Source: an uncultured Rhodospirillaceae bacterium (GTDB lineage: Bacteria > Pseudomonadota > Alphaproteobacteria > UBA7887). Taken from it: a stretch of DNA of 33,938 bases. The notes beneath the pieces were generated by a model. The model had not been told where the DNA came from and searched no databases. It was given only the letters and a program-made list of their open reading frames with translations. The DNA is taken from positions 1 to 33,938 of the forward strand of contig CAJWQN010000003.1 in assembly GCA_913045505.1 (NCBI GenBank), given 5' to 3'. Below, piece after piece: positions 16,816 through 26,358 of the stretch. How positions within the stretch are numbered: position 1 is the stretch's first letter; each line of letters begins with the position of its first letter. The translations under genes were made by a program, and so were the position numbers.

Positions 16816-17910
16816 TCAAAACACCGGTACGATGTCGTCGGGGTCGAAGGCGACGGTCTCGCCGTCGATGCCGATCTCGGGGATGGCCGGGAAGGCGATG
16901 CCGTAGGGCTCGATGACCCCTTTCATCCTGAGCACGGCGGCGCGCCAGTTCTCGGCCCGTTGCTCCAGGCTGAGCACACCCAGCCCGGCATCGCGGGCAC
17001 AGTCCTCGAGCAGCCGGTGGGCCGGGGTGAAGGTCTCGGGCAGGTCCCAGAACTGGTCCGGCGGCTCATAGAGGATGCCGGAGAGAAACACGTAGCCGGC
17101 GCGGAGCTGGCGGGTGATCATCAGGCGTTGTTCGTCGTCGAGCGCCGGCAGCAGCTTGCGGATCATGGCCATGCAGATGCCCATATGGCGGGCCTCGTCC
17201 TTGCCGATGCAGCGGAACGCTTCCGCCAGAACCGGGATACTGGTGTTTAGATGCATGCCGTGAAACAGGGTCGCGGCCGCCAATTCGCCCATCAGAAAAG
17301 ACGTGAACAGGATCGCCAGGGGATATTTGCCGATACTGCCCTTGAACCCGGTCCAGTAGCGGGCGCCATTGTGGTAGTACCAACGCACATTGTTCTGGGC
17401 CAAGCGACCGAGCGCGGTCTCGGGGGTATAACCGAGCGGGCCGCCGGGGGTGAGGCGCGCGATCACCCGCTGGCAGATTTCCTCGTGATTGACTTCGTCG
17501 CGGGTGACCGAGAAGAAGCATTTGCGGACCGGGTCCTCCTCATGGGTCTCGTAACTGTGGATCATGGCCCGGGCGAACACCGCGGGTCCCGAGGAATCGA
17601 ACACCGAGAGGAGCGCGAACCAATAGGCGATGGCATAGCGCTGATCGGGGCTGAACGACTCCTTCTTCAGGCTCTCCCATTCCAGCAGATGGGGCGCCCA
17701 GCCGGGATCGCGGGCGGCCTCGTAGATATCCACGAGCTTGGCGGTCTCGACCGTCCATTGGAGCGGGAAGATGTTATGCTCGGGAAACGGCGGTGGCTCG
17801 GTGGTTCCGAACAGAATCTGCTCTGGCTCCGGACGCCCCTCGGCACCAAGCGGTGGCGGCTTCAGCCCGGCGGCCAGCGCTTCCGCCCCCTTGGACGCCT
17901 CGGTGCTCAT
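16816..17910 (-). CDS. Ferritin-like/R2-like di-iron protein
   Basis: A 364-residue protein starting at the ATG at 17910; the open frame extends to 18120 but the extra 70 residues are unlike the rest and would overlap the divergent methyltransferase. Two carboxylate-histidine iron motifs are visible, DEVNH (E139, H142) and DEARH (E239, H242), with E209 between them on the helix MGELAAATLFHG. This is the order seen in ribonucleotide-reductase-R2-like and AurF-like di-iron oxidases. Helical content is high and there is no signal peptide. The substrate cannot be told. It is divergent from a methyltransferase gene with 193 bases between them; no clear operator was found there. Confidence 0.75.
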   Translation of the reverse strand: MSTEASKGAEALAAGLKPPPLGAEGRPEPEQILFGTTEPPPFPEHNIFPLQWTVETAKLVDIYEAARDPGWAPHLLEWESLKKESFSPDQRYAIAYWFALLSVFDSSGPAVFARAMIHSYETHEEDPVRKCFFSVTRDEVNHEEICQRVIARLTPGGPLGYTPETALGRLAQNNVRWYYHNGARYWTGFKGSIGKYPLAILFTSFLMGELAAATLFHGMHLNTSIPVLAEAFRCIGKDEARHMGICMAMIRKLLPALDDEQRLMITRQLRAGYVFLSGILYEPPDQFWDLPETFTPAHRLLEDCARDAGLGVLSLEQRAENWRAAVLRMKGVIEPYGIAFPAIPEIGIDGETVAFDPDDIVPVF

Positions 17911-18103
17911 GCACCGGCCCCGGTCATGGCCATATCGTCTCCCGTCGCCGACAATGTCTTGGTCCGGCTCATTCCCCGATATTAGGGTCTCGACAACCGT
18001 CAACCAAGCCCGATGGCGGCCACCTTCGAGACTTGCAAATCGAGGCCGCATGGTCGAGGAAACCTCGAGCAAATCATGCGATCGCACGAAGGGAACGCTC
18101 GTT

Positions 18104-19012
18104 ATGGCGGTGAGAGGCATTGGCCAGGCTGACGACAGCCCGATTTCAAAGAGTGCGATGCTGTTGGTGACGGCTTGTGCCGTGGTTTCGAAGGATCCGG
18201 TTTACGCGCGGACCTTTCAAGACCCCTACGCGGCCTGGTTCGCGGCCGCGATCTCGGACGAAGCGGCCGAGCGCCTGCCGACCCTGGACGACCTGGCGGC
18301 ACGCGCCGCCTTCATCGAGGAGACCGAGCGCGATCTCGATGGTCTGGTGACCCATGTCGTCTACCGCAAGCCCTGGATCACCGATCGGGTGCGCGGCGCC
18401 TTGGAGGCCGGCATCGGACAACTGGTGATACTGGGTGCCGGGTGCGACACATTATCGCTAAGGCTCGAGAAGGCCCTGGCGGGCGTCGAGGTCTTCGAGT
18501 TCGACCGGACGCCGGTGATCGACTTTCGGCGCCGGGTGCTCGGACAACATGGCGCCTTGGCCGAAAACGTCCGGCTTCTGACAATCGATTTCGACGAGGA
18601 CGACCTGGGTACGGTCCTGGGCGCCAACGGCTTCGACCGGGACAAGCCCGCGATCATCGTCGCCGAAGCGGTGGTCGAATATTTAACCGGAGATGGGGTC
18701 GAGGGATTGTTCGCTTCCGCGCGCCGGATGGGGGCACCGGACAGCCGCTTGATTTTCACATTCCTGGCCAACAAGGTTTACGAACCGGGCAAGTTCGACA
18801 CCCTGCGCGATAGGCTCGACGAAGGCGGCGAATCGCTGAAGTTCGGTCTGGTTCCGTCTGAAATCGAGCATTTTCTCGACGCGCGCGGATTTCGTTTCCT
18901 TGAAATGGCGACCCCCGAGACGATCGAACGCGAGATCGTCCCGTTGGTTGGCGCGCCGGTCGGGATCATTCCCGGTTGGCATTTGGTGCTCGCCGAGCGC
19001 CACATGCGCTGA
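18104..19012 (+). CDS. SAM-dependent methyltransferase, leucine carboxyl methyltransferase-like family
   Basis: A 302-residue protein from the ATG at 18104, with AAGGGA 9 bases upstream; the open frame begins far earlier, across the neighbouring gene. The Rossmann methyltransferase core begins at residue 108 with QLVILGAGCDTLSLRL (SAM-binding glycine loop), followed by VFEFDRTPVIDFRR for the acidic ribose contact and IIVAEAVVEYL as the post-motif strand. The pattern matches the LCM/TIGR00027 family, many of whose members make small molecules or methylate acids of unknown identity. It is followed 62 bases later by the phosphatase gene in the same direction, so the two may be co-transcribed. 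The methyl acceptor is unknown. Confidence 0.85.
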   Translation: MAVRGIGQADDSPISKSAMLLVTACAVVSKDPVYARTFQDPYAAWFAAAISDEAAERLPTLDDLAARAAFIEETERDLDGLVTHVVYRKPWITDRVRGALEAGIGQLVILGAGCDTLSLRLEKALAGVEVFEFDRTPVIDFRRRVLGQHGALAENVRLLTIDFDEDDLGTVLGANGFDRDKPAIIVAEAVVEYLTGDGVEGLFASARRMGAPDSRLIFTFLANKVYEPGKFDTLRDRLDEGGESLKFGLVPSEIEHFLDARGFRFLEMATPETIEREIVPLVGAPVGIIPGWHLVLAERHMR

Positions 19013-21798: not shown

Positions 21799-23016
21799 TC
21801 ACTCTTCGATCGTGAACCTCAGATGCCCGTGCGCCTGGCGGAGGGCGGCCTCGACCGTGGCCGGGTCGGCGGCATGGGCGAAGATGAAACCCAGATATTT
21901 GCGCCCCTCGGGCAGGGGCACCAGGTTCTCGCCGATCGGAATGGTGATCGTGACATCACCGATGCCGGCGACGGCGCGCGCTCGGCCGAGGCCGTCGATC
22001 GCCTTCAGGGTGCCGGCGACGGGGATCGGGATCATCATCACCCCGCCGGCGTCGCGCTCGCGGATCAGGTTGTCCTGGGGCAGGCCGAGGGCGTGGCGCA
22101 GGATCACGTCTTCGAGAGAGATGCCGGCGCCGAAACGGAGCGCCCGCGCGCACAGGCCCCCGATCGAGCGCGCGGCCATGTCGACCACCCAGAGGTGGTC
22201 GCGGTCATGGCGCAATTCGGCATGGATCGGACCATGATGGAGGCCAATGGCGGCGGCGGCCCGCTCGGTGGCGGCGGCGATCCGCGCTTGCATCCGTGCC
22301 ACCAGGCGTGACGGCGTGACGTAGAGGGTTTCCTCGAAATAAGGACCGATAAGGGGATCGGGCTTGTCGAACAGGGCCAGTACCCGCAAATGCCCGGCGT
22401 CCATCAAACCTTCCACGGCCACTTCCTGGCCGGGAAGATAGTCCTCGATTAGAATCCGCAGTGGATCGTCCGGCCCGAGGAGGCCCGAGACGCGCGCGAA
22501 GGCGGCTTCGAATCCGGCCCGGTCGTCGGCGCGAATCACGCCCCGGCCGCCGGCCATGGCGAGCGGCTTGAGCACGCAGGGATAGGTCTGGGCGCGGGCC
22601 ACCGACCGCGCGTCCTCGGTGGCGCCGACCAGGCGAAAACCCGGTGACGGCAACCCGCCGGCGGCCAGCGCGGCGCGCAGGAGATGCTTGTCCCGGGTCG
22701 CCCGGACCGCCTCGATGCCATTGTGGCGAAGGCCCAGCGCCGCCGCCGCGTGGGCGGCGAGAACCACGCCCCCATCATCGACCGCGACCACCGCATCGAA
22801 CAGGCGGTTGCCGGCATGGGCGGCAATTTGCCGGGCACCGGCCTTTCCGTCGGCGAAGTCGAACCGCGCCACCCCACCGTCGGAGAATGCTTCCGAGGCC
22901 TGAGCCCGATCGGTCCCGACCACGACTTCGACCTCGACCGGCAGTCGGCCGGCGGCGGCCATGAAATCGGATGCGCGGTAGGTGTCCGACGGCACCAGCA
23001 ACAGCAAGCGTTTCAT
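21799..23016 (-). CDS. ATP-grasp ligase
   Basis: A 405-residue protein. An N-terminal Rossmann-like region (LLLLVPSDTYRASDF) precedes the ATP-grasp fold: TRDKHLLRAALAAGGLPSPGF near residue 107, the ATP-binding lysine in TYPCVLKPLAMAGGRGV, the EDYLPGQEVAVEGLM strand, and the metal-binding HAELRHDRDHLWVVDMAARSIGG. The C-terminus has a domain reminiscent of biotin-carboxylase-like ligases. These enzymes join a carboxylate to an amine or thiol via an acyl phosphate. It lies 37 bases downstream of the radical SAM gene, with the same strand and order. It is likely a partner in one pathway, by analogy with radical SAM/ATP-grasp pairs that make modified peptides or amino acids. Substrate is unknown. 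Confidence 0.88.
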   Translation of the reverse strand: MKRLLLLVPSDTYRASDFMAAAGRLPVEVEVVVGTDRAQASEAFSDGGVARFDFADGKAGARQIAAHAGNRLFDAVVAVDDGGVVLAAHAAAALGLRHNGIEAVRATRDKHLLRAALAAGGLPSPGFRLVGATEDARSVARAQTYPCVLKPLAMAGGRGVIRADDRAGFEAAFARVSGLLGPDDPLRILIEDYLPGQEVAVEGLMDAGHLRVLALFDKPDPLIGPYFEETLYVTPSRLVARMQARIAAATERAAAAIGLHHGPIHAELRHDRDHLWVVDMAARSIGGLCARALRFGAGISLEDVILRHALGLPQDNLIRERDAGGVMMIPIPVAGTLKAIDGLGRARAVAGIGDVTITIPIGENLVPLPEGRKYLGFIFAHAADPATVEAALRQAHGHLRFTIEE

Positions 23017-23053
23017 GATGGGCCTTGGGTGAGGCCGATTGTGGCGACAGTGA

Positions 23054-24460
23054 TCAAACGGCGGCGCGCTGGGCCGCGGTCGGCTCGGCGCAGCAGTACC
23101 AGGGCTCGCTCATGCGCGGCACCGGCGCCCGAGACCGAGCCGGCGGCAACCAGTCCGGCACCGGGTCGAGCCCACCGGCGCGGCGGGTGAGGGCGACGAT
23201 CTTGGCGAAGGTCCCGGCACGGTCTTCGCCGATCCCCTCGGCTCCCTCGACCGCCGCCGCGACAGCCTGGCTCAGGGCCTCGACTCGCGGGTCGGGGTTG
23301 CGCCAGGGATAACTCAATGCCTCCGGCTGGTAGGGGCCCAGGCCGCGGCGCAACGCGGCCAAGCCGCGCAGACGCGAGCCCTGGGGCACCAGCAGCCGGA
23401 TCGCGAGCTGGATCGGGGCGACCTCGGCGATCAGGTCGAGAGCCGCGATCTCGCGCAAGAGATCGTGGTAGCCCTCGAGAGTTGTCCAAGGCGTGAACGG
23501 AATGAAGGTCGGCGACAGGGTGAGCCCGGCGTCGCGGGCAAGCGCGACAGCGCGCAGGAAATCGACCCGGCTGTGGCCCTTGTCGAGCAGGGCCAGCACC
23601 TCGTCGTCGAGCGATTCGACGGCGGTGGTGACCAACAGGCATCCGGTCTCGACCAGGGTCCGGAGATGGCGCCGCTGGCGGAGCAAATGCTCGACCTTGA
23701 TGGTGGCGTCGTAAGTGATTTCGGGATCGGCCGCGTGCACGGCCCGGACCAGGCGCAGGGCGTGACCGACGCCGTTGAAGAAATCCGGATCGCCGAAGCT
23801 GATGTGTCGGGCTCCGGCGGCGATTTGGGTCGCGATATCGGCCATCACCACGTCGTGCTGGACGACGAAGAACCGGCCGTCATAGACCGGCACCACCGGG
23901 CAGTGCCGGCACCGGTGCTTGCAGCCCCGGCTGGCCTCGGTATAGCCGCTCCGGCGGTGCTCGTCTCCGATCTGAAGAGTCGCGTAGTTGTCGAGGCCGG
24001 GCAGGCCGGCGCGCTCGGGCATCCGGAACCGTTGCTTGGCGAGCGCGACCACTGGCGCCACCGTCGGCGCCTCGGATATCACCTGCCCGTCGTTGGCGAC
24101 CAACCGGTGATAAAGATCGACCAATGGGGTCTCGAATTCGCCGCCAATAATCGACTGCCCGCCCAGGTCCCGCAGATAGCCGGCGTTCATCGGCGCGTAG
24201 AGCCCGTAAAAGCAGAGATGGGCGCCGGGATTGAGGTCGCGGATGCGCGCGATCACGTCGCCGGCGAGTCGGGTCGCGGTGTGCATGGGCAGGTGGATCG
24301 CGATCATCCCGGCGGCGGCCACGGCCGCCGCATCGAGGTCTTCGACCGCGAGGTCGTTGCAGGTCACCCGCGCCCCGGCCTGGCGCAGCCACGCCGCGGG
24401 CGAGGCCAGCCCGAACGGCTGGTGGCCCAGATCGTAGGTGGACAGCAGCAGGACGTTCAT
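23054..24460 (-). CDS. Radical SAM protein with B12-like N-domain and CCAEP tail
   Basis: A 468-residue protein from the ATG at 24460; a TTG four codons earlier is less likely. Residues 1-150 look like the cobalamin-binding fold (STYDLGHQPFGLAS). The radical SAM motif is C180, C184, C187 in EASRGCKHRCRHC. The middle has GDPDFFNG and VTTAVESLDDEVLALLDKGH, usual for the barrel. At the C-terminus the tail EPWYCCAEPT puts cysteines at 456 and 457. This matches, from memory, an uncharacterised group of radical SAM proteins in which the second of these cysteines is selenocysteine in some species (CUAEP). Here it is cysteine. The tail suggests a redox-active pair. The gene lies between the NifU-type scaffold gene and the ATP-grasp gene, all on the minus strand. 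Confidence 0.9.
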   Translation of the reverse strand: MNVLLLSTYDLGHQPFGLASPAAWLRQAGARVTCNDLAVEDLDAAAVAAAGMIAIHLPMHTATRLAGDVIARIRDLNPGAHLCFYGLYAPMNAGYLRDLGGQSIIGGEFETPLVDLYHRLVANDGQVISEAPTVAPVVALAKQRFRMPERAGLPGLDNYATLQIGDEHRRSGYTEASRGCKHRCRHCPVVPVYDGRFFVVQHDVVMADIATQIAAGARHISFGDPDFFNGVGHALRLVRAVHAADPEITYDATIKVEHLLRQRRHLRTLVETGCLLVTTAVESLDDEVLALLDKGHSRVDFLRAVALARDAGLTLSPTFIPFTPWTTLEGYHDLLREIAALDLIAEVAPIQLAIRLLVPQGSRLRGLAALRRGLGPYQPEALSYPWRNPDPRVEALSQAVAAAVEGAEGIGEDRAGTFAKIVALTRRAGGLDPVPDWLPPARSRAPVPRMSEPWYCCAEPTAAQRAAV

Positions 24461-24494
24461 CGGCCGTCCCAATGGCGGCGCGTCGTCGGTGCCG

Positions 24495-25337
24495 CTATTT
24501 CGAGGGCTGATAATAGGGGTTCGTGCCGCCCGCGTGATCGGTCACGTCCAGCACATGAACGATGTCCGGCGCGGCGCGCTTGATTTCGCCCTCGACCCCC
24601 TGTTTGAGGGTCACGTCGGCCATGCCGCAGCCCTGGCAGCCGCCCTCGAGCCGGATGTAGACGGTGTCGTCGGTGACGTCGACCAGGGCGATATGGCCGC
24701 CATGCATGGCCACCGAGGGGTTGATCCGCTGATCGAGCACGTCGCGGACCGCGAGGCCGGTCGGTGTCTCCAGGCCCGGCTTCGGGATCAGGTCGCGGTG
24801 GTCGATGACCTGCTCGACCTCGGCGATGTAGTGGCGGAGCATGTTCTCGATCCCGCTCCTCAGCCCGAACGCGGCGCCGCTCATTTCGAGCGCCACCTTG
24901 CCCTCGGAGAAGCCGTGGAACACCGCTTCGCCGCCGTTCTGGGCGAGAGCCGGGCGGACCCGGGAGTCCAGCAAGTCCTTGATCTGGGCGACCAGCTCGG
25001 CGTCTTCGGGGGCGAAATCCTCCTCGATTTGGGAGTCATCGGCGCCGGAGGCGGCGGTCACGGCCGGCGCGCCGGACATGAAATGCTCCATGATCGCGCT
25101 CAGAATCGCCGGCTTGAGCACTTGCCACTCCGTGTCCCCGGCCTTGGTGACGCTCACCAGATCGACCCCCAACGTGACCGCGACCACATTCTCGATCTCG
25201 AACAGCCGCGCCGCCAGCGGCGAGCGCGCGCTCGATTCGCGGTCCGGAAAACTGACGGTTCCGGCGTCCATGACCGTGCGCCCGGGCAGGAATTTGAGCA
25301 CCGCCGGGTCGGCGTCGGCCTCGGTCTGAATAAACAT
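24495..25337 (-). CDS. NifU-type Fe-S scaffold with tandem, partly degenerate NifU domains
   Basis: A 280-residue protein from the ATG at 25337 with GGAGG just upstream. Residues 1-87 are the Nfu N-terminal domain (MFIQTEAD...VLKFLPGR). A first NifU-like domain (about 112-170) keeps VRPALAQNGGEAVFHGF and GIENMLRHYI but has lost its CxxC: the stretch reads SGAAFGLRSG. A second NifU domain (about 195-262) is complete, with C234 and C237 (GGCQGCGMA). Such proteins carry Fe-S clusters to target apoproteins. Ordinary alphaproteobacterial Nfu proteins have one such domain, so the duplication is notable. The gene precedes the radical SAM gene by 34 bases, so it may supply clusters to it; a housekeeping role is equally possible. 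Confidence 0.88.
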   Translation of the reverse strand: MFIQTEADADPAVLKFLPGRTVMDAGTVSFPDRESSARSPLAARLFEIENVVAVTLGVDLVSVTKAGDTEWQVLKPAILSAIMEHFMSGAPAVTAASGADDSQIEEDFAPEDAELVAQIKDLLDSRVRPALAQNGGEAVFHGFSEGKVALEMSGAAFGLRSGIENMLRHYIAEVEQVIDHRDLIPKPGLETPTGLAVRDVLDQRINPSVAMHGGHIALVDVTDDTVYIRLEGGCQGCGMADVTLKQGVEGEIKRAAPDIVHVLDVTDHAGGTNPYYQPSK

Positions 25338-25371
25338 GGCGACCTCCATCGCGGGGATTTGGTCTCAAGGT

Positions 25372-25419: not shown

Positions 25420-25848
25420 TCAGAAAATCGGATCCGATCGCGTCGCCGTGGTCAGGAATTCGAGCAGGTTGCCGTCGGGATCTCGGAAATATACGGATTG
25501 GCCCCACACACCGTCGGCCGCCGGACGCGGCACCGGGCCTTCGATGATTTCCACCCCGCGATCGGTCAAATAATCCACCGCTGCCTCGATATCGGCGTCC
25601 CAGCGAAAACACAGGTCGACGGAGCCTGATTCCAAACGGTCGGCCACTATATATGCCGGATCGTCGAGTTTTTGCAGATTGACCACGGCGCCGCCCAGCA
25701 CGACCTGCATGACCTTGACCTTTCCTTCGCGGTAAGCGGATTCGAACGGCAAGGCACCACCCAGGACATCCCGATAGAAAACAATCGAGCGTTCGATATC
25801 GCTTGCCATGATAACGACGTGATCGATGTTGCGAATCGGGATGGCCAC
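25420..25848 (-). CDS. VOC (glyoxalase/dioxygenase fold) protein
   Basis: A 142-residue protein with the two beta-alpha-beta-beta-beta halves of the vicinal oxygen chelate fold. The opening IRNIDHVVIMASDIERSIVFYRDVLG gives the first metal histidine, and the end SVYFRDPDGNLLEFLT gives the glutamate. VOC proteins bind a metal and act as lyases, dioxygenases or antibiotic-binding proteins; the function here is open. It is upstream of the NifU gene on the same strand with an 82-base gap, so common transcription is possible but not certain. It is divergent from the DOPA-dioxygenase-like gene, with an inverted repeat between them. Confidence 0.88.
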   Translation of the reverse strand: MAIPIRNIDHVVIMASDIERSIVFYRDVLGGALPFESAYREGKVKVMQVVLGGAVVNLQKLDDPAYIVADRLESGSVDLCFRWDADIEAAVDYLTDRGVEIIEGPVPRPAADGVWGQSVYFRDPDGNLLEFLTTATRSDPIF

Positions 25849-25939: not shown

Positions 25940-25986
25940 CGGGGCCGTGGCAAGGGCCGCCGCCAATGCGAGGAGGTTCGGACGTC

Positions 25987-26358
25987 ATGAGCACGGCGGA
26001 GATCGATACCGACTTCGATCAAAGTCCGATCACGGGCTATCACGCCCATATTTACTACGATCCGGCGAGCCGGGAGACGGCGGCGCGGATTCGCGAAGCG
26101 CTGGGCGCCAGGTTCGAGGTCGAGCTCGGCCGCTGGCGCGAGGAGCCGGTCGGGCCGCATCCCCAATCGATGTATCAGGTCAAGTTCGCGCCCGCTCAGT
26201 TCGCCCTGGTGGTGCCGTGGCTGATGCTCAATCGCGACGGGCTCGACGTGCTGGTCCACCCCTCGACCGAGGATGCCTATGCCGACCACAGCCATCGGGC
26301 GATGTGGCTGGGCGAAAAGCTAGTGCTCCGGCTCGACGGCCTGGACTCGCCCAGGTGA
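25987..26358 (+). CDS. DOPA 4,5-dioxygenase family protein
   Basis: A 123-residue protein. The ATG at 25987 has AGGAGG 10 bases upstream, which favours it over the earlier in-frame start. The family signs are GYHAHIYYDP near residue 18, PHPQSMYQVKF in the middle, and a late histidine cluster VHPSTEDAYADHSHRAMWLG. These histidines are the likely iron ligands. Known members open the ring of DOPA-like catechols at the 4,5 position, but most bacterial members are uncharacterised. At about 120 residues it has the usual single-domain length. It is followed by the c-di-GMP gene after 214 bases with its own candidate control site. Confidence 0.87.
   Translation: MSTAEIDTDFDQSPITGYHAHIYYDPASRETAARIREALGARFEVELGRWREEPVGPHPQSMYQVKFAPAQFALVVPWLMLNRDGLDVLVHPSTEDAYADHSHRAMWLGEKLVLRLDGLDSPR

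Follow-up and report, generated by a model that had tools for sequence, protein, structure and literature searches.

A conserved gene set around a CCAEP-tailed radical SAM protein, with an ATP-grasp ligase and Nfu or YggX as companions

The question raised by this locus is what a radical S-adenosylmethionine (SAM) protein ending in a CCAEP tail does between an Nfu-type iron-sulfur (Fe-S) carrier and an ATP-grasp ligase. The three genes lie in a 33,938-nucleotide stretch (the window) of contig CAJWQN010000003.1 from an uncultured Rhodospirillaceae bacterium (assembly GCA_913045505.1). As the initial annotation had described, they are consecutive on the minus strand: the nfu gene at positions 24495 to 25349; the gene for the 468-residue radical SAM protein at 23054 to 24460, recognized by profile match; and the gene for the 405-residue ligase at 21799 to 23016, recognized by its domain profiles. 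The ATG at 25337 is the likely start of nfu, yielding the MFIQTE N terminus common to its orthologs. The gaps of 34 and 37 bases are also exactly as reported and are too small to hold a precursor peptide; one hidden there is ruled out, in agreement with the earlier statement that none was found nearby. The earlier observation of the gene set is thereby confirmed, and its interpretation is partly supported. Our favored answer, offered tentatively, is that the three genes form a conserved biosynthetic module, in which an ArsL-like transfer of a 3-amino-3-carboxypropyl (ACP) group to a soft atom at the cysteine/selenocysteine (Cys/Sec) tail would be followed by ligation.

The radical SAM protein and its kinship to ArsL

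The radical SAM protein is a full member of NCBIfam family NF040546 (rSAM_CUAEP, the CUAEP/CCAEP-tail radical SAM (seleno)proteins). It scores 619.7 bits against a curated cut-off of 500 bits (E = 3e-186, which excludes a chance match), and it carries the C-terminal C[CU]AEP tail (PWYCCAEPTAAQRAAV). Its radical SAM domain matches PF04055 at 51.1 bits. The CxxxCxxC motif (codons at 23900 to 23923, minus strand) supplies C180, C184, and C187, the predicted ligands of the radical SAM [4Fe-4S] cluster, and the tail, C456 to P460, is encoded at 23081 to 23095 on the same strand. The cysteine positions, including C456 and C457, had been called correctly; they are invariant in 49 homologs, and other genomes have Sec (UGA) in place of one or the other tail Cys. 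The family is present in a quarter of the sampled Chloroflexota and also in Acidobacteriota, Actinomycetota, and Alphaproteobacteria. To the family as curated, this analysis adds the gene context, Sec at the first tail position, and the Nfu-or-YggX rule described below.

No paper naming the NF040546 family was found in the literature searched. The group had initially been regarded as lacking an assigned function, and the family is indeed named without one, but a functional neighbor had been missed. The second-best NCBIfam family for the window protein is ArsL (NF040542), at 259.6 bits, and the third scores 39 bits. ArsL is an ACP transferase acting on As(III) (PMC8552651; JACS 2024 146:21214, as cited in PMC12159101). 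In a pairwise comparison, the window protein and ArsL of Pseudomonas amygdali are 31% identical over 406 residues (E = 1e-69). The protein shares with ArsL of the arsQML arsinothricin cluster a B12-like/radical SAM architecture and a vicinal pair of cysteines at the C terminus, the CC of RCCLKC in ArsL aligning with the CC of CCAEP. It is nevertheless not an ArsL: its score lies below the curated ArsL cut-off of 450 bits, the RCCLKC C terminus is replaced by CCAEP, the tail of its family reads W(Y/F)CCAEP, and Sec variants occur on the CUAEP side. A search of 72,556 plasmids recovered 1 CUAEP protein and 16 proteins with the ArsL/RCCLKC tail.

The cobalamin-like N-terminal domain proposed earlier is B12-binding-like in fold only, with a resemblance to AprD4 and TsrM; the match to PF02310 (22.5 bits) falls short of the cut-off of 32.1 bits, and no conserved DxHxxG motif was seen. 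Homology to ArsL makes it somewhat probable that the radical SAM protein performs an ArsL-like ACP transfer. Arsenite or arsenic is the first candidate acceptor, albeit a doubtful one, alongside selenium, sulfur, or another atom.

Selenocysteine at either position of the tail

Sec had been expected at the second tail position in some bacteria. This was borne out, but Sec also occurs at the first. An in-frame TGA occurs in the tail in 15 of 80 loci from named genomes, replacing the second Cys codon in 10 and the first in 5; across 137 loci, the tail is CC in 91, CU in 40, and UC in 5, with one unclear. The window's own protein is the Cys form. Judged by the well-supported branches of the tree, a minimum of 8 changes is required for the CC label and of 9 for the CU label, and this alternation of Cys and Sec across homologs is the conservation that had been predicted for the tail. 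The first-position forms (WY-U-CAEP; L056, L061, L086, L093, and L099, where L and G numbers are our labels for loci and genomes) all belong to Chloroflexota/Anaerolineae and form one clade (100/100 support).

The homologs with TGA carry the features expected of selenoproteins: the TGA stands at a conserved Cys codon, a hairpin follows it, and SelB is encoded in the genome (above cut-off in 15 of 15 Sec genomes tested and in 6 of 9 Cys genomes). Because z-scores for a selenocysteine insertion sequence were weak in single sequences, hairpins were compared between Sec and Cys forms at the same codons, giving means of -8.5 and -2.7 kcal/mol, respectively (P value of 1.6e-8, which ignores kinship among sequences that are not independent).

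Since Sec occurs at either position, both tail cysteines appear to be important, with selenium acceptable at each. Together with the repeated Cys/Sec switches, this suggests a nucleophilic or metal-binding pair. The redox-active pair proposed in the initial annotation appears to be an incomplete description; the tail may instead be a metalloid- or chalcogen-binding site and not a redox pair only. A Sec that swaps between two adjacent positions is unusual and offers a way to probe the function of the tail.

The repeated replacement of Cys by Sec also fits a conventional radical SAM reaction through a 5'-deoxyadenosyl radical, in which the CC or CU pair would be a redox or leaving-group partner, the substrate a small molecule, and ATP-grasp joining a later step. 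In the AlphaFold model (predicted local distance difference test [pLDDT], 93.8; predicted template modeling score, 0.92), the tail is placed with fair confidence (pLDDT, 84 to 87), and the closest solved folds, AprD4 (E = 8e-18), TsrM, and OxsB, do no ACP transfer. These fold matches are distant, however, at 13 to 19% identity, and the only close sequence relative, ArsL, does ACP chemistry. We consider a conventional reaction unlikely.

The ATP-grasp ligase and its association with the radical SAM protein

Two domains of the ligase exceed their cut-offs, ATP-grasp_4 (PF13535; 95.7 against 27 bits) and LAL_C2 (PF18603; 58.4 against 29.4 bits), which place it in the L-amino-acid-ligase type with a predicted ligation activity. 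Its best PDB match is 3vot, the L-amino acid ligase BL00235 (E = 7e-32). The domain pair is a likeness to BL00235, BacD, and DdaF, but the score of the window ligase falls well short of the cut-offs for BacD and DdaF, and the 32 CUAEP-linked ligases tested form a clade of their own (97/88 support). An ATP-grasp ligase of the same broad type, but from a different clade (100/98), is also encoded in the ArsL clusters on plasmids of Alicyclobacillus, Priestia, Pantoea, and Klebsiella. A single ancestral module for the ArsL-linked and CUAEP-linked ligases was rejected, given the separate clades and an identity of 22%. The separate clades indicate instead that related radical SAM proteins recruited a ligase twice, which would favor an amino acid as the radical SAM product.

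Conserved co-occurrence of the ligase with the tailed radical SAM protein, proposed earlier as a check, was confirmed in counts that ignore the relatedness of the genomes. A ligase lies within 3.5 kb of the CUAEP gene in 51 of the 81 best-matching loci and, in the samples by phylum, in 22 of 33 Chloroflexota and 11 of 20 Actinomycetota loci; when it is not adjacent, 23 of 28 genomes hold one elsewhere (451 to 646 bits; one each, two in G800). Among 301 Chloroflexota, 73 have both genes, 2 the radical SAM gene only (partial hits), 23 the ligase only, and 203 neither, so that the CUAEP-clade ligase occurs in 73 of the 75 genomes that have the radical SAM gene versus 23 of the 226 that lack it. 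The corresponding values among 80 Alphaproteobacteria are 11 of 11 and 1 of 69, leaving out two weak ligase matches (152 and 203 bits). Routine separation of the genes had been named as evidence that would tell against a shared pathway: the genes are often apart in position, in about 36% of eligible loci, but are almost never missing from the genome. Ligases from genomes in which no CUAEP radical SAM protein was found (L190 to L207 and L217) are mostly beside Nfu and come from Chloroflexota, with one from an alphaproteobacterium (G007).

If the two neighbors were bystanders, Nfu would only mature the cluster and the ATP-grasp protein would be an unrelated passenger of the operon, a view favored by Nfu being the genome's general carrier and by the 23 ligase-only genomes. 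The near-strict co-occurrence in two phyla, the single ligase clade, and G800, which has two CUAEP radical SAM genes together with two ligases, make it highly improbable, and it is strongly disfavored for the ATP-grasp protein.

Five CUAEP genomes without the ligase (L062, L038, L045, L067, and L088) carry other tailoring genes. The L062 and L038 operons encode a 2-ketoarginine-methyltransferase-like enzyme, an aminotransferase, an L-isoleucine-dioxygenase-like protein, and a MerB-like protein, with a GCS2 ligase also in L062; the L062 (6217 to 11367) and L038 operons resemble a natural-product cluster producing an organometal or organometalloid amino acid. In L045 (10360 to 13039) and L067 (11112 to 13903), CUAEP is followed by DUF169, the corrinoid-associated methyltransferase CpaM, and an HgcAB-like fusion, and L088 has a MerB-like protein nearby. 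The locus of Catenulispora rubra (L096, 6703 to 8529) encodes a ligase-GNAT acetyltransferase fusion beside an ArsR/SmtB regulator, as well as DUF169 and a pyridoxal phosphate-dependent decarboxylase. These exceptions point to amino-acid and organometal chemistry, in a minority of loci only. A SaoD/DsrE protein (L172, 5563 to 5928; NF040913, 198 bits) is encoded convergently with CUAEP, and two loci of actinobacteria and one of Chloroflexota have a relative of it nearby. Likeness to the selenoprotein systems built around HgcAB-like, CpaM, MerB-like, and SaoD/DsrE proteins consists in the presence of those genes in a minority of CUAEP operons; they are absent from the window and from most members.

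Nfu or YggX, and a possible pathway

The Nfu protein had been described as having two domains, but three were found: Nfu_N, a degenerate NifU domain, and a C-terminal NifU domain. Only the last has a CxxC motif (GCQGCG in translation; 24627 to 24638, minus strand), which is predicted to bind a cluster, and each of 24 aligned Nfu proteins has one CxxC. A new observation here is that Nfu and YggX are mutually exclusive partners. Of the 104 loci for which 2 kb was available on each flank, 38 have Nfu near the radical SAM gene, 29 have YggX, 67 have either, and none has both, a few of these loci duplicating one genome and phylogeny being uncorrected for; where the ligase is adjacent, Nfu or YggX is present in 61 of 67 loci. 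This exclusivity may inform on the poorly understood YggX. In 17 of 33 Chloroflexota loci (L127 to L147, L221, L225, and L239), YggX and either CUAEP or the ligase have as a neighbor a methionyl-tRNA-formyltransferase-like gene that scores under the fmt cut-off (130.5 versus 201.5 bits).

Ligases lying away from the radical SAM gene still adjoin Nfu (8) or YggX (6) in 14 of 20 cases, and Nfu adjoins the ligase in approximately 15 of 18 loci without a radical SAM gene, which, on the tree, was lost repeatedly. Because Nfu or YggX accompanies the ligase even where the radical SAM gene lies elsewhere or is missing, the ligase has at least as strong a claim as the radical SAM protein to the iron or Fe-S link. 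The earlier grouping of NifU with the radical SAM protein stands as adjacency in the window, but the carrier tracks the ATP-grasp gene, with YggX taking its place in other phyla. An Nfu dedicated to the radical SAM protein was rejected, as no NifU-domain gene other than the window's nfu was found in this genome (86.6% complete), several relatives likewise having a single one, and Nfu remains with the ligase once the radical SAM gene is gone. The idea that the ligase tags a C-terminal Lys common to Nfu and YggX was dropped, since Acinetobacter NfuA also ends in YFK.

These associations bring in a role in Fe-S or iron homeostasis, in which the ligase, with the radical SAM protein where present, would make a small thiol, selenol, or metal-binding peptide for iron or Fe-S trafficking, and Nfu or YggX would be the protein arms. 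The exclusive presence of Nfu or YggX by the radical SAM gene, their adjacency to distant ATP-grasp genes, and the ATP-grasp/Nfu pairs that outlive radical SAM loss all favor it, as do aconitase, which adjoins in 13 of 28 Acidobacteriota, and LipA, in 6 Chloroflexota. It does not predict the ArsL kinship or the MerB-like, HgcAB-like, and ArsR companions of some operons, and the Fe-S genes may merely support the radical SAM enzyme. We regard such a role as the less probable account, though a serious one, and it may hold alongside the favored one.

Under the favored module of ACP transfer and ligation, the radical SAM protein, as an ArsL-like ACP transferase, would move ACP onto a soft atom held by the Cys/Sec tail, the product being a non-protein alpha-amino acid that contains a carbon-heteroatom bond. 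Next, the ATP-grasp protein of the L-amino-acid-ligase type would couple this to a second amino acid, presumably yielding a dipeptide, and Nfu, or YggX in other phyla, would handle the iron or Fe-S clusters needed or served by the pathway. Several findings weigh against this sequence of steps. The ACP chemistry rests on approximately 30% identity. Unlike in ArsL clusters, no arsM, arsQ, arsN, arsH, arsR, or arsenic transporter gene lies beside the window genes or typical homologs, and a typical arsenic island was rejected on this ground. The 23 Chloroflexota genomes that keep the ligase, mostly beside Nfu, without the radical SAM gene imply that it does not everywhere depend on that protein for its substrate. 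Finally, a metalloid product does not by itself account for the Fe-S company of Nfu, YggX, aconitase, and LipA.

A broader pathway outside arsenic islands, in which a Sec-tailed ArsL-like enzyme would build a metalloid or chalcogen amino acid, the ligase would turn it into a small peptide cofactor linked to iron or Fe-S, and Nfu and YggX would be interchangeable partners, is conceivable but quite unlikely as a whole. Connecting the CUAEP family with ACP transfer, a single ligase clade, and a partner that is either Nfu or YggX would turn an unnamed protein into a testable pathway, and the recurring set points to a small molecule that can be looked for.

Among the other genes, the VOC gene upstream (25420 to 25848) was rejected as a fourth member, as no relative of it adjoins other loci, and one cluster of apparent neighbor genes proved to be a shifted-frame overlap of the radical SAM gene. 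An AurF-like protein without an NCBIfam match is encoded at 16816 to 18120 on the minus strand (weak PF11583 match, 26.8 bits). Near nfu, a DOPA 4,5-dioxygenase-family gene lies at 25966 to 26358 on the plus strand, and a relative of it adjoins Nfu in L178, from a genome of the same family.

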